This document shows, one piece after another, positions 39,722 to 43,186 of a stretch of DNA of 64,000 bases. The notes below the pieces were generated by a model. It did not search any database. It worked only from the letters and a program-made list of their open reading frames with translations, and was not told the DNA's origin. The position numbers were made by a program, and so were the translations under genes. This stretch comes from Bacteroidota bacterium (lineage in GTDB: Bacteria; Bacteroidota; Bacteroidia; Chitinophagales; Chitinophagaceae): positions 104,027 through 168,026 of the forward strand of contig VBAT01000014.1 of assembly GCA_005884665.1 (NCBI GenBank), written 5' to 3'. Position 1 is the stretch's first letter, and each line of letters starts with the position of its first letter.

Positions 39722-39754
39722 TTTGGCACTATCGAAAAATTATTTTCATCTTTG
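39722..39754 (+). promoter_or_regulatory. promoter of the leader-AAA-rtcB unit
   Basis: TTTG at 39722-39725, a 21-nt spacer, then CATCTTTG at 39747-39754 (TAnnTTTG with one mismatch). Transcription would start near 39761, about 13 nt before the first tiny ORF. TGGCAC at 39724 recalls a sigma-54 -24 box, but no TTGC lies at the required spacing. Confidence 0.55.
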
Positions 39755-39773
39755 CATCCGCAAAACAAATTAA

Positions 39774-39863
39774 ATGCTCCGCAGACAACAATTACATATC
39801 GAATCAGTGAACCGGGTTAGTCCAGCAGGTGACTATACAGTTTGCGGGGTGTTGAATACATGA
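39774..39863 (+). CDS. leader peptide ORF 1 (29 aa)
   Basis: An ATG-started ORF of 29 codons reading MLRRQQLHIESVNRV... and ending ...GDYTVCGVLNT. No SD is visible, which is normal here. Its 3' end contains TTGCGGGG (39842-39849), identical to the right arm of the terminator that follows 26 nt after its stop. A ribosome at the stop codon would cover that element. I see it as a regulatory leader peptide and not a functional protein. There is no proof of translation. Confidence 0.5.
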   Translation: MLRRQQLHIESVNRVSPAGDYTVCGVLNT

Positions 39864-39914
39864 ATTAACGAATTCAATGAAATACAGGCCCCGCAAGCGA
39901 TTGCGGGGTTTTTT
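39842..39914 (+). promoter_or_regulatory. attenuator 1: antiterminator element plus intrinsic terminator
   Basis: Terminator: CCCCGCAA (39889-39896), loop GCGA, TTGCGGGG (39901-39908), then T6. An identical TTGCGGGG at 39842-39849, inside leader ORF 1, can pair with the same CCCCGCAA and prevent the terminator. The two structures are mutually exclusive. The upstream element ends 39 nt before the left arm. Confidence 0.7.
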
Positions 39915-40059
39915 GTTGAATATAAATCTCACGCTGAGGTGCAACGTATGGACTGCCGTAATAAGGTCGTTGCATGAAATTAGAAGGAAGCTAAATTTTT
40001 TCAAACTGATTTTATGTAAACGAAAACAAACTGAATCTGTAACGAAAGAAAAAATAAAA

Positions 40060-40206
40060 ATGCCGAATAAGATAAAACATACACGATTTACAAGACGCAG
40101 TAATAGAGCGCTATCGTCATTGGGCTATTGCCGTGTGCAGGCGAATATTGTGTGGATGACGGAAAATGATAGTGCTCATAAGCGACCAGGTTATGCCAAT
40201 TCATAA
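40060..40206 (+). CDS. leader peptide ORF 2 (48 aa)
   Basis: 48 residues from ATG 40060: a basic start (MPNKIKHTRFTRRSNRALSS) and a polar tail ending HKRPGYANS. The same frame is open back to an ATG at 39877, but that longer version would include terminator 1, so the short form is preferred. Its 3' end contains CGACCAGGTT (40183-40192), a near-copy of the right arm of the following terminator. The stop lies 24 nt before that terminator, matching the layout of ORF 1. Confidence 0.5.
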   Translation: MPNKIKHTRFTRRSNRALSSLGYCRVQANIVWMTENDSAHKRPGYANS

Positions 40207-40263
40207 AGTGTACACAACACTTTGAAGAGAAACCCGGTCGCAACAAACGACCGGGTTTTTTTA
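40183..40263 (+). promoter_or_regulatory. attenuator 2: antiterminator element plus intrinsic terminator
   Basis: Terminator: AACCCGGTCG (40231-40240), loop CAACAAA, CGACCGGGTT (40248-40257), then a T-run to 40263. The upstream CGACCAGGTT (40183-40192) can pair with AACCCGGTCG at 9 of 10 positions. It ends 38 nt before the left arm, against 39 nt in attenuator 1, and 14 nt before the ORF stop in both cassettes. Confidence 0.7.
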
Positions 40264-40279
40264 TTAGAAAAATTTAAAA

Positions 40280-40372
40280 ATGGAAATAACACTTGTACTG
40301 CACCTGGTAAGTGCGATCCTGGTGACGATCGCCAGGGCAACGGAAAAACCTCCACACAGATGGAGGAAATAA
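40280..40372 (+). CDS. tiny hydrophobic peptide ORF 3 (30 aa)
   Basis: 30 residues starting 17 nt after terminator 2. A hydrophobic N-terminal half (MEITLVLHLVSAILVTIA) is followed by a basic tail (RATEKPPHRWRK), the shape of a small membrane peptide. Its 3' end includes CCTCC...GGAGG (40349-40366), a hairpin that competes for pairing with the SD of the next ORF. Its stop codon (TAA, 40370-40372) overlaps that SD, so translational coupling is likely. Function unknown. Confidence 0.45.
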   Translation: MEITLVLHLVSAILVTIARATEKPPHRWRK

Positions 40373-40382
40373 GGAGGTAGTT

Positions 40383-40517
40383 ATGAAATTTATCATGATG
40401 GTATTGACGATCCGTTTTGTGGCTGAATTGATCACTGGCAAGAGAAAGGTGGTAAGGAATGATGTGTCTGCCGGAGGTCAACAGGTAATTCACCCGGCTG
40501 AATTCAATACAAGATGA
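40383..40517 (+). CDS. tiny peptide ORF 4 (44 aa) with a strong Shine-Dalgarno
   Basis: 44 residues: MKFIMMVLTIRFVAELITGK, then a basic and polar tail ending HPAEFNTR. It is preceded by AAGGAGG (40371-40377) with five bases to the ATG, a textbook SD that is rare in this phylum and in this window. The stop lies 26 nt before the third hairpin, the same spacing as in ORFs 1 and 2. Function unknown: leader peptide or small membrane protein. Confidence 0.5.
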   Translation: MKFIMMVLTIRFVAELITGKRKVVRNDVSAGGQQVIHPAEFNTR

Positions 40518-40543
40518 AGATATAATGTGCAGAGGAGGAAAAT

Positions 40544-40574
40544 AAGCGTTCCCGCGATGCAGCGGGGCGCTTTT
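40544..40574 (+). terminator. third hairpin, just before the AAA gene
   Basis: AAGCG (40544-40548) and CCCGC (40551-40555) pair with GCGGG (40562-40566) and CGCTT (40568-40572), followed by a short T-run. It ends 11 nt before the AAA ATG, leaving no room for a promoter between them, so AAA transcription must pass through it. I could not find a matching upstream antiterminator copy for this one. Confidence 0.6.
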
Positions 40575-40584
40575 CCAAAAATTA

Positions 40585-41682
40585 ATGAATGATTTAAATG
40601 TAAAAAAGATGGAAAATTTATTTACCCAGAAAGTTATCAATGCAAACAACGTTTTTGCCGACAATTTCCTGGATGTTAAGATGCTGTACCTGTATAATTT
40701 TAACAGGTTACCGAGCATACATTTTATCGGGAATATCGATGGTGAAAAAGCTTTTGCCGCGATTAAAGAAAAGCTTGCGGCGGAAATTATGAATATTCAC
40801 CAGCGGAAATGGTATAAAAAGAAGAAAAAAGTATTTGAGTTCGATAATACGGTAATCGTAATGAACGGGAATTGTATGTTGGAACTTGATGATAATTTTT
40901 GCGAGATATTGCATGATGGAAAGAACCCCGAGGGCATACAAATGGTAATTGACATCGTTCTCCAGTTTAAAGAAAAAGAACGAAGACAGCCCCTGGAAGT
41001 TAATCTTATCGTGCAGGGTAGAAACCGGCTGGAATTAAAGGCGATGGAGATTAAACGTACGAAACTCGACCTGGATCTTTTTTATGACGGGAATTTTAAA
41101 GAAACCGACGAAATAATCAGGAAAAGATTAAGCCGGAAGAACGATAAGGGTGTTGTGTTGTTGCACGGCTTGCCAGGTACCGGCAAAACGACTTACCTGC
41201 GCTACCTGGTTGGCAAGATTAAAAAAAGGGTTTTGATTTTATCGCCGTCCGTAGCCGATAATCTCATGAATCCTGAGTTCATTGAGCTATTGATCAACAA
41301 TCCAAATACGGTATTGATCATTGAAGATGCAGAAAATATCATAATGGAGAGGCGGCAAAGCAGTCGTTCATCCGTGTCCAATCTTTTAAATATATCAGAT
41401 GGATTGCTGGCGGACTTTTTGAATGTACAGTTGGTATGCACCTTCAACAATTCAATTGCAACCGTCGACAGTGCATTAACACGAAAAGGAAGATTGATCG
41501 CAGCATATGAATTTGGGAAGTTGAAAATAGCGAAGGCCCAGCAGCTAAGCGATCATTTTGGGTTTAATACGAGCATCAACAGACCGATGACTATTGCTGA
41601 AATCGCTAACCAGCACGAAGAAGAACAAAAGACCGGCCAAATGGAAATAATCGGATTCAAGTGGGAGACAGGATCGGCTTGA
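40585..41682 (+). CDS. AAA-family ATPase with unassigned N-terminal domain
   Basis: 365 residues from ATG 40585 (ATG 40609 is an alternative). Residues 1-180 form a mixed domain I do not recognise. The AAA module follows: Walker A GLPGTGKT (195-202), Walker B VLIIEDAENI with Glu247-Asp248, sensor-1 CTFNN (285-289), and arginines at 300 and 303 in the finger position. SVSNLLNISDGLL recalls BCS1-type AAA proteins. The RtcB gene follows 55 nt later, so it probably remodels RNA-protein complexes or assists RNA repair. That role is inferred from context. Confidence 0.8.
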   Translation: MNDLNVKKMENLFTQKVINANNVFADNFLDVKMLYLYNFNRLPSIHFIGNIDGEKAFAAIKEKLAAEIMNIHQRKWYKKKKKVFEFDNTVIVMNGNCMLELDDNFCEILHDGKNPEGIQMVIDIVLQFKEKERRQPLEVNLIVQGRNRLELKAMEIKRTKLDLDLFYDGNFKETDEIIRKRLSRKNDKGVVLLHGLPGTGKTTYLRYLVGKIKKRVLILSPSVADNLMNPEFIELLINNPNTVLIIEDAENIIMERRQSSRSSVSNLLNISDGLLADFLNVQLVCTFNNSIATVDSALTRKGRLIAAYEFGKLKIAKAQQLSDHFGFNTSINRPMTIAEIANQHEEEQKTGQMEIIGFKWETGSA

Positions 41683-41737: not shown

Positions 41738-43186
41738 ATGAGCAAACTTAAGATACGTGGCAAAGAGCTCCGGTCCATCGGTTACCCTGAAGGACCGGTC
41801 GTCAGCATTGCTATGAATATAATGGAAAAAAATTTCAAACACCTGCCGCACGGAGAGGCGATGGAGATACTGGGATCAATTCTCCAAAGTCCGAATGAAT
41901 ATGCAGGTGACCCGGTACTGGGCAATATTGCAAAAGCATTGCTGCCTAAGCCGGAAACGGACGGAGTAGCAATTTCCTTAAACAACAACGGTATTCAATT
42001 CAATGTTTTTGGAAGCGAGTACATCGAAGAAGGTGCGATGCATCAAATGTATACAGCCGCGAAATTGCCTGTTGCAGTAGCTGGGGCATTGATGCCAGAT
42101 GCACATTCAGGCTATGGATTGCCTATCGGGGGTGTGTTGGCAACAGAAAATGCCGTTATTCCTTATGGAGTAGGCGTGGATATTGGTTGCCGGATGTGCC
42201 TGAGCGTTTTTGATATTGATCCGAACGAATTAATTCAGAGGGAAAACTATTTCGCCCGGGAATTGAACCAAGCTACTTTGTTTGGAAGCGGCGCCCAGTT
42301 TCAGCAAGCGAAAGACCACGAAGTGATGGAAAGAATGGAATTTAATGAAGTCCCAATATTGAAAGCGTTGCATGGAAGAGCGTGGAAGCAACTGGGTTCA
42401 TCGGGTTCGGGAAATCATTTCGCGGAGTTTGGAATAGTTGAGATCAGCGAAAAAGATGCAATACTTGGCATCGATGCCGGATCTTATCTCGGATTGTTGT
42501 CACACTCGGGTTCAAGAGCATTGGGAGCAAACATTGCCAATCATTATACAAAGATCGCGAAGCAGAAAAGGCGTTTGCCCGGTGAAGCCAATAATCTAGC
42601 CTGGTTGAATCTCGACGAAGAAGAAGGGATCGAATACTGGATGGCGATGAACCTGGCAGGTGATTATGCATCCGCCAATCATCATATCATTCACCAGAAG
42701 ATCGCCAGGCAACTGGGACGAAAACCGTTAAAGGTGGTAGAGAACCATCACAATTTTGCCTGGAAAGAAACCTGGGAAGGAAAAGAACTGATCGTTCATC
42801 GTAAAGGAGCAACACCAGCGGGTAAGGATGTACTGGGTATCATTCCCGGATCTATGACTGCAGCAGGTTTTATCGTAAAAGGAAAAGGTGAATCTGCAGC
42901 TGTCAATTCCGCTGCCCACGGAGCAGGAAGAAAGATGAGCCGGACTGCTGCGATAAAATCCATCACGCATGAAGCATTGAAAGATGAATTGAAAAAGCAG
43001 GGTGTAAAACTGATCGGTGGCGGGCTGGATGAAGCGCCGTTTGCTTACAAGGATATCGAATCGGTCATGCGTTCGCAGAAAGCGCTGGTGGATATTGTTG
43101 GAAAGTTTATACCAAGGATAGTGAAGATGGATGGAGCGAAGCATAGGGTCTATGGAAAGAAAGGAGAAAAGGTAGAGGGTGAATAG
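41738..43186 (+). CDS. rtcB: RtcB-family RNA ligase
   Basis: 482 residues. RtcB joins RNA ends carrying 2',3'-cyclic phosphate or 3'-phosphate to 5'-OH, using GTP and Mn. Key residues are present: GVGVDIGCRM (Asp148, Cys151), GSSGSGNHFAEF (His227), LSHSGSR (His256), and the guanylylated histidine in AAHGAGRKMSR (His394). It is longer than E. coli RtcB (408 residues). It forms a two-gene unit with the AAA ATPase and sits behind the attenuator-rich leader. No rtcA or archease gene is nearby. Substrates could be tRNAs cut by toxins. Confidence 0.92.
   Translation: MSKLKIRGKELRSIGYPEGPVVSIAMNIMEKNFKHLPHGEAMEILGSILQSPNEYAGDPVLGNIAKALLPKPETDGVAISLNNNGIQFNVFGSEYIEEGAMHQMYTAAKLPVAVAGALMPDAHSGYGLPIGGVLATENAVIPYGVGVDIGCRMCLSVFDIDPNELIQRENYFARELNQATLFGSGAQFQQAKDHEVMERMEFNEVPILKALHGRAWKQLGSSGSGNHFAEFGIVEISEKDAILGIDAGSYLGLLSHSGSRALGANIANHYTKIAKQKRRLPGEANNLAWLNLDEEEGIEYWMAMNLAGDYASANHHIIHQKIARQLGRKPLKVVENHHNFAWKETWEGKELIVHRKGATPAGKDVLGIIPGSMTAAGFIVKGKGESAAVNSAAHGAGRKMSRTAAIKSITHEALKDELKKQGVKLIGGGLDEAPFAYKDIESVMRSQKALVDIVGKFIPRIVKMDGAKHRVYGKKGEKVEGE

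Follow-up and report, generated by a model that had tools for sequence, protein, structure and literature searches.

Attenuation is the textbook case of a mechanism that senses one amino acid. The leaders of WhiB7 and PA5471.1 are short ORFs that sense ribosomes stalled by several causes, and these two, together with the TopAI-YjhQ leader, respond mainly to antibiotics and have other outputs; we know of no report that any of the three samples amino acids. The leaders described here, found ahead of RNA repair genes, are likewise short ORFs. In Escherichia coli, the uORF of TopAI-YjhQ is a short leader ORF that senses ribosomes stalled by several causes (PMC12121999). The Salmonella rsr-yrlBA-rtcBA operon is an RNA repair operon that responds to broken tRNAs (PMC7790460), which is also the signal proposed here; however, its control differs, in that RtcR binds tRNA halves and activation involves sigma-54, and neither “leader” nor “attenuat” occurs in the main text of that paper. 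In Anabaena, the trn operon, a silent tRNA array co-regulated with rtcB, is induced by translational stress, and the table of changed genes for the TrcR regulon includes an AAA ATPase and a slipin (PMC10272220). These functional parts (tRNA array, RtcB, AAA, and slipin) are shared with the loci described below, but control in Anabaena is exerted by a protein repressor, and the accessible sections of that paper do not mention a leader attenuator. Furthermore, in a literature search covering titles and the openings of abstracts, mostly of non-subscription articles and with the larger result sets covered in part, neither a pan-amino-acid leader nor attenuation of rtcB was apparent.

Two leader cassettes ahead of the AAA ATPase and RtcB genes

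The window analyzed here is a 64,000-nt stretch of contig VBAT01000014.1 (forward strand, positions 104,027–168,026) from assembly GCA_005884665.1, which comprises 5.7 Mb in 124 contigs and is 94.4% complete. On the + strand of the window, a promoter, cassette 1, cassette 2, two small ORFs, and a third hairpin are followed by the genes for an AAA ATPase (positions 40585–41682; PF00004, E = 1.5e−10) and the RtcB RNA ligase (positions 41738–43186; PF01139, E = 1.4e−83). The best profile matches of the AAA ATPase among solved structures were AFG2 and BCS1, and the 21 Pfam families matched by this protein, the one neighboring protein considered for an RtcR-type signature, included no CARF/RtcR or sigma-54 activator.

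Cassette 1 consists of leader ORF 1 (positions 39774–39863; MLRRQQLHIESVNRVSPAGDYTVCGVLNT, with 17 of the 20 amino acids), antiterminator element 1 (positions 39840–39850), which pairs with positions 39888–39898, an inner hairpin within the antiterminator (positions 39859–39879 in the MFE fold), and intrinsic terminator 1 with its U tract (positions 39886–39914), which has counterparts in the alignment of relatives described below. Cassette 2 has the same parts, namely leader ORF 2 (positions 40060–40206), whose 48 codons specify all 20 amino acids, all of them already within the 36 codons upstream of the element; antiterminator element 2 (positions 40182–40192), which pairs with positions 40231–40241; an inner hairpin (positions 40206–40222 in the MFE fold); and, by the terminator call, intrinsic terminator 2 with its U tract (positions 40226–40262). 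Because the reading frame of ORF 2 is open upstream as far as an ATG at position 39877, its start at position 40060 is likely, not proven. The antiterminator of cassette 1 was calculated at −23.3 kcal/mol versus −17.5 kcal/mol for the terminator, whereas that of cassette 2, at −17.5 kcal/mol, was less stable than its terminator (−21.8 kcal/mol). The first-pass annotation had proposed the same boundaries for both ORFs and had placed upstream copies of the terminator arms at positions 39842–39849 (TTGCGGGG) and 40183–40192 (CGACCAGGTT), each ending 14 nt short of the end of its own ORF and lying 39 and 38 nt, respectively, from the left arms; all of these were exact on rechecking, the left arms being CCCCGCAA (from position 39889) and AACCCGGTCG (from position 40231).

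A profile built from 12 AAA proteins yielded 80 homologous loci, the best 80 of 374; 198 of the 394 genomes of the family had a match to this profile at E ≤ 0.001, a count that takes in weak hits on other AAA proteins. The relatives that bear names belong to Niastella, Lacibacter, and Chitinophaga, all within the Chitinophagaceae of the phylum Bacteroidota, and many others are metagenome-assembled genomes. A cassette was counted when its terminator had a pairing score of at least 17 and its ATG ORF was within a set length. By this rule, 63 of the best 80 loci had a detectable cassette 1, 42 had a cassette 2, and 42 had both; the leader-1 ORFs of the relatives have 27–34 codons. Retention of the terminators with loss of the elements or the small ORFs, the pattern named in advance as speaking against the annotation, was sought and is not the pattern of these loci. 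The two matched cassettes first proposed are real, in their coordinates and in a pairing above chance in relatives, and conserved.

Among the same loci (best 80 of 374), the stretch examined upstream of the AAA gene contained at least one tRNA gene in 48, at least 5 in 30, and at least 10 in 17, the longest array having 16; a few loci have single tRNAs upstream of the leaders instead (e.g., L052 and L061). On the same strand, 44 of the 80 loci have an RNaseH-like gene (PF04308, assigned via the query protein), 39 have an SPFH gene, and 50 have RtcB. The usual layout is a leader pair, then a tRNA array, and then RNA repair genes in varying order. For example, a locus from the same genus as the window genome (L201) has leader 1, 18 tRNAs, RNaseH-like and SPFH genes, a further ORF, and RtcB in a row. 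In the window species, the leader pair, AAA, and RtcB are retained and the tRNA array is absent; an RtcB start located, as in the window, 0.9–1.7 kb past the AAA start was found in 13 of the 77 loci that extend far enough for this comparison. The window itself contains no tRNA genes, and a tRNA search of the whole genome gave 44 matches, the biggest group noticed being five in 2.3 kb; a long array elsewhere in the source genome was therefore rejected, at the assembly completeness given above. The RNaseH-like gene of this genome lies at a separate site (L142:8643; G000:C98:42645–43109), with neither a cassette nor a tRNA array in the 16 kb examined around it.

Between the cassettes and the AAA gene, the first small ORF (positions 40280–40372, 30 aa) had no Pfam match, and the second (positions 40383–40517, 44 aa), which has a hydrophobic start and an HPAEF motif near its C-terminus, had no Pfam or NCBIfam match. 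The HPAEF motif was present in a short ORF at 14 of the 80 loci (best 80 of 374). A pattern search recovered a third conserved RNA element (positions 40529–40574), composed of GCAGAGGAGG / GCAGAGGAGGAAAATAAGC and a hairpin with GATGCAGCGGGG, in 11 matches, i.e., the window and 10 of the best 80 of 374 loci. Shine-Dalgarno sites are seldom used by Bacteroidota, and the GGAGG of this element is odd for the phylum. The third hairpin (positions 40545–40574) was not a terminator by the calling rule used, and no leader cassette was seen there.

Promoter arrangement and pairing of the leader RNAs

A Bacteroidota-type promoter (positions 39723–39754, TTG ... CATCTTTG) precedes leader 1 and agrees with 8 of the 9 positions of what we take to be the Bacteroidota consensus. 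Of 62 regions upstream of leader 1, that of the window among them, 61 scored at least 8, against a shuffled mean of 6.3. The regions upstream of leader 2 scored like shuffled sequences; two of 43, one of them from the window, reached 8 or more. The candidate promoter of the window (positions 39970–39999, TTG ... TAAATTTT) is located downstream of terminator 1 and 60 nt from the ATG of leader 2, matches 8 of the 9 positions without the final G, equaling the leader-1 score, and is absent in most relatives. The claim that there is no room for a promoter held for the space before the AAA gene, whose ATG at position 40585 follows the third hairpin by 10 nt, but this candidate lies before leader 2. 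An independent start at this candidate promoter would break a series arrangement. Because the relatives have a promoter before leader 1 but not before leader 2, the two terminators probably act in series, as judged from the sequences. Read-through should then require a stall in each leader, which fits the amino-acid breadth that each leader has by itself.

An upstream partner of the terminator left arm exceeded dinucleotide shuffles at p ≤ 0.05 for 82 of 199 terminators upstream of AAA versus 10 of 183 controls, and at p ≤ 0.01 for 31 of 199 versus 2 of 183 (80 loci, best of 374). Furthermore, the elements tracked the terminator arm of their own locus. The pairing score with the own arm was 22.4, as compared with 20.2 with arms from other loci, for cassette 1 (n = 74, z = 6.8), and 19.3 as compared with 16.3 for cassette 2 (n = 58, z = 9.7), exceeding all 10,000 permutations for both cassettes in sets that include 10 and 15 cassettes failing a detection rule and of which most others were chosen by a pairing threshold. 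Column-by-column covariation of the elements with the left arms, a check that the first-pass annotation had suggested, did not exceed shuffles in a MAFFT alignment of 47 cassette-1 sequences of our own selection, designated A2, and so did not support the pairing; shifts of the arm register may mask covariation there.

In a co-transcriptional folding model, the left arm was captured by upstream RNA before synthesis of the right arm with a mean probability of 0.87–0.90 in cassette 1 (n = 64) when the ribosome was at least 14 codons before the stop, and of 0.14 when it was at the stop; the corresponding values were 0.82–0.84 and 0.24 in cassette 2 (n = 43). Shuffled upstream RNA captured the left arm with probabilities of 0.60–0.67 and 0.56–0.62, respectively. 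For the window, the model gave 0.89 versus 0.05 in cassette 1 and 0.75 versus 0.10 in cassette 2. At equilibrium with the full terminator, the terminator of cassette 1 dipped modestly, to a mean of 0.62 (0.01–0.03 in the window), and that of cassette 2 did not switch, with a mean of about 0.9 when the element was free and 1.0 throughout in the window. Thus, the alternative structures switch in the co-transcriptional model when the ribosome passes the element but, in cassette 2, not at equilibrium, and because cassette 2 is terminator-favored at equilibrium, it would need kinetic capture. Two properties of ribosome-mediated attenuators are present here: a short leader ORF follows the promoter motif, and the antiterminator and intrinsic terminator, which share one arm, exclude each other. 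That the position of the ribosome decides between them is a prediction of the folding model.

An Rfam scan of the window gave no match at the gathering threshold, T-box riboswitches included; Trp_leader (20.6 bits versus a gathering score of 41) and Leu_leader (19.8 versus 50) were below threshold, and an Rfam-described RNA was rejected as the identity of the leader.

Amino-acid breadth of the leaders and its relation to the tRNA arrays

The leader peptides are near-pangrams, a point new to this analysis. Leader 1 (73 cassettes from 64 loci, including the window) has 17.1 distinct amino acids in about 30 residues, as compared with 14.3 in real protein fragments of matched length; over 29 clusters at 50% identity, the values were 16.7 and 14.3 (z = 8.5). 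Leader 2 (44 cassettes, 43 loci) has 18.1 versus 16.3 expected (z = 8.0 over 33 clusters). Draws from the pooled composition of the leaders gave 15.2 for leader 1 and 17.2 for leader 2, less than observed, so the excess resides within each peptide, and the other two frames were near the null (14.2 and 14.8 for leader 1; 16.3 and 16.6 for leader 2). All 20 amino acids occurred in 6 of 73 leader-1 and 12 of 44 leader-2 peptides, and at least 19 in 21 of 73 leader-1 peptides versus 0.3% of the 1,862 other ORFs of 26–34 codons in the 80 loci (best 80 of 374), none of which held all 20. When the cassette rule was applied to other terminators, the small ORFs that it yielded were not enriched (z = −2.7, n = 22; z = 1.2, n = 48). 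Further loci repeated the breadth (z = 7.6, n = 15; z = 5.4, n = 11); these were found by a model built from the first set and share its ancestry, the kinship being covered partly by clustering.

We then defined a zone as the codons upstream of the ribosome position that covers the element, and scored one cassette per locus (64 and 43 loci). The zone of leader 1 was strongly enriched (z = 14.1; 7.8 in clusters), with no excess beyond it (z = −0.9 and −0.2). The zone of leader 2 was also enriched (z = 8.9; 8.6 in clusters), as was the remainder (z = 4.6; 3.8 in clusters), so that its breadth is not confined to the zone. In the window, leader 2 holds all 20 amino acids (P = 0.001 for the 36-codon zone and 0.012 for the whole peptide, against real protein fragments), and leader 1 is ordinary, with 17 distinct amino acids in 29 residues (P = 0.056) and 11 in the 17 of its zone, near the null. 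Among 221 leader-1 pairs, variation at the three codon positions was 0.24, 0.27, and 0.36, third positions varying most. Synonymous codon diversity in the leaders showed no clear excess, and sampling at the level of isoacceptors was accordingly not clearly found and was set aside.

The breadth of leader 1 followed the number of amino acids in the tRNA array of its locus (rho = 0.71 in 63 loci; 0.63 in 29 clusters, p = 2e−4), as did that of leader 2 (rho = 0.69 in 42 loci; 0.58 in 32 clusters). In 27 loci, 241 array amino acids were present in leader 1 versus 232.5 (SD 2.6) in shuffles. With tRNA-Met excluded, 238 of 260 array tRNAs had a codon in leader 1, versus 227 in shuffles and 178 in the +1 frame (29 loci). 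Where both leaders were present (23 loci), one leader or the other had a codon for 195 of 197 array tRNAs; neither this match nor that of leader 2 alone (184/197) was above shuffles. The loci in these comparisons share ancestry, and kinship was handled by clustering or not at all. ARAGORN found no tRNA-Thr in any of the 30 arrays that contain at least five tRNAs, and Thr was present in 25 of 27 leaders.

The same architecture serves amino-acid operons in this family. The second covariance-model match in the window genome (L221:983–1105; G000:C55:64782–64904) is a trp attenuator with a MRTIKINIQWWWHTNSFGVL leader containing WWW, a GGGG element, and a GGCCCCGG terminator, at a pairing score of 16, just below the cassette threshold; the best NCBIfam matches of the downstream ORFs were trpE (under the model cut-off), trpG, and trpD. 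Among 20 mid-scoring places in the family, seven combined a WWW leader with a trpE-like ORF downstream (identified by NCBIfam in one case and by eye in the rest), and two Phe/Tyr-rich leaders and one Ile/Val-rich leader preceded matching genes (L227, L237, and L240). Of the remainder, one had a trpE-like ORF without a detected leader, eight had nothing clear, and one combined an 18-amino-acid leader with what by eye is an RNaseH-like/SPFH pair. The trp, phe/tyr, and ilv attenuators, located before trpE, prephenate dehydratase, prephenate dehydrogenase, and ilvD genes, share with the RNA-repair leaders the short ORF, the element over the ORF end, and the terminator with a shared left arm. In contrast, their leaders repeat one or few amino acids (WWW, YFYFYF, and IIIVVVV), whereas the RNA-repair leaders come in pairs, contain almost every amino acid, and would have tRNA genes and RNA repair under their control. 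In the Chitinophagaceae, the codons placed in this architecture thus correspond to the pathway that is regulated, the RNA-repair leaders being the broad case. No enrichment of the codons of one regulated amino acid, and no single-residue run, was found in the RNA-repair leaders; they would represent a variant of the ribosome-mediated attenuator because breadth that follows the array replaces the control codons for a single amino acid.

Proposed signal, alternatives, and distribution of the leader family

We consider it quite likely that the two cassettes are tandem ribosome-controlled attenuators that poll nearly all tRNAs, the loss of any of which would lead to tRNA replacement and RNA repair. 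Transcription of both cassettes would start at the single conserved promoter. A ribosome that completes the short ORF would cover the element, so that the terminator forms and transcription ends, whereas after an early stall the element would stay exposed and capture the left arm of the terminator, and RNA polymerase would continue. With nearly every amino acid encoded before the element, as in many relatives and in leader 2 of the window, a shortage of almost any charged tRNA would bring about this release. Two attenuators in series would act as an AND gate that limits basal expression. What is switched on would be, in many relatives, spare tRNAs and varying sets of RtcB, AAA, RNaseH-like (PF04308), and SPFH proteins, and in the window species, AAA and RtcB. 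The attenuation reading of the first-pass annotation is supported by the conserved cassettes, the own-arm pairing, the folding model, and the amino-acid attenuators of the same design; its suggestion that the leader senses translation failure, such as that caused by cut tRNAs, gains weight from the tRNA arrays of the relatives and the near-complete amino-acid content of the leaders. Beyond this, we lean toward a universal sensor of tRNA integrity made of RNA and ribosomes alone, in which AND-gated leaders, their breadth evolving with the array, would restore the tRNA pool and repair RNA.

A leader cannot distinguish an uncharged tRNA from a cut one, and the leaders might instead constitute a general sensor of amino-acid starvation, responding to uncharged tRNAs when any amino acid is short, with tRNA damage not being the natural signal. 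Breadth at the level of amino acids rather than isoacceptors, and the sampling of Thr despite the lack of tRNA-Thr in all 30 arrays, would fit such a sensor. We nevertheless regard it as unlikely, since the recognized outputs lie outside amino-acid biosynthesis, being tRNA genes, an RNA ligase, and its associated proteins, and since leader breadth follows array breadth. It seems quite improbable that the leaders are translation-stress sensors of the TopAI-YjhQ, WhiB7, and PA5471.1 kind, triggered by ribosome-slowing antibiotics and with an incidental composition. The Anabaena tRNA array is reported to be induced by ribosome-targeting antibiotics (PMC10272220), and one such leader has a MATE transporter gene downstream (L212), but a sensor of this kind leaves the near-pangrams, the placement of leader-1 breadth upstream of the element, and the fit to the array unexplained. 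That these are ordinary terminators beside unrelated small protein genes, with complementarity arising by chance or from GC-rich arms, is hardly credible, because although such arms capture shuffled upstream RNA with a probability of about 0.6 and column covariation is not above shuffles, the excess of upstream partners over controls, the preference of the elements for their own arm, and the geometry conserved across loci all argue against it.

If the polling of nearly all tRNAs holds true, a leader selected for nearly all amino acids would be a general sensor of tRNA health, and a bacterium could detect tRNA cutting without a dedicated sensor protein. It would join tRNA arrays, RtcB, AAA, RNaseH-like, SPFH, and, at one locus, Ro60-like proteins in one regulon within one bacterial family. 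It would also supply a sequence test for locating such leaders elsewhere and direct predictions for tRNA-cutting toxins and phage defense.

At E ≤ 0.001, the covariance model of cassette 1 matched 111 of the 195 genomes searched in the family, and 73 places among the matches listed had E values below 1e−6. Twenty strong leader-1 matches were hand-picked, mostly from sites not next to an AAA gene or from genomes whose AAA matches were weak. Of these, 17 precede at least one of RtcB, AAA, RNaseH-like, and SPFH genes; the other three precede a MATE-like gene with nine tRNAs, a single tRNA, and nothing recognized, respectively. In a phylum search of 395 genomes, with strict filters and about seven candidates scored per genome, leader-1 matches with E values below 1e−6 were found only inside the Chitinophagaceae; outside the family, the best match had 41 bits, many matches covered the terminator half alone, and the presence of leader 1 there was rejected.

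Under this leader family, a Ro60/TROVE protein identified by Pfam (L220:1310–2830) occurs together with tRNAs and an RNaseH-like gene, and a MATE-family transporter, by Pfam at L212:2280–3695 and putative at L216:1339–2754, lies between the leader and the tRNA genes at two places. The Chitinophaga loci L098, L101, L102, and L104–L110 have no tRNAs, and their leader 1 contains 13–17 amino acids. Many of the Chitinophaga loci L098–L110, which lack tRNAs and have less broad leaders, contain an additional leader pair roughly 1.3 kb farther upstream (positions about 4200 and 5480), and in several of them what is presumably a DinB-like gene lies between the two leader pairs.
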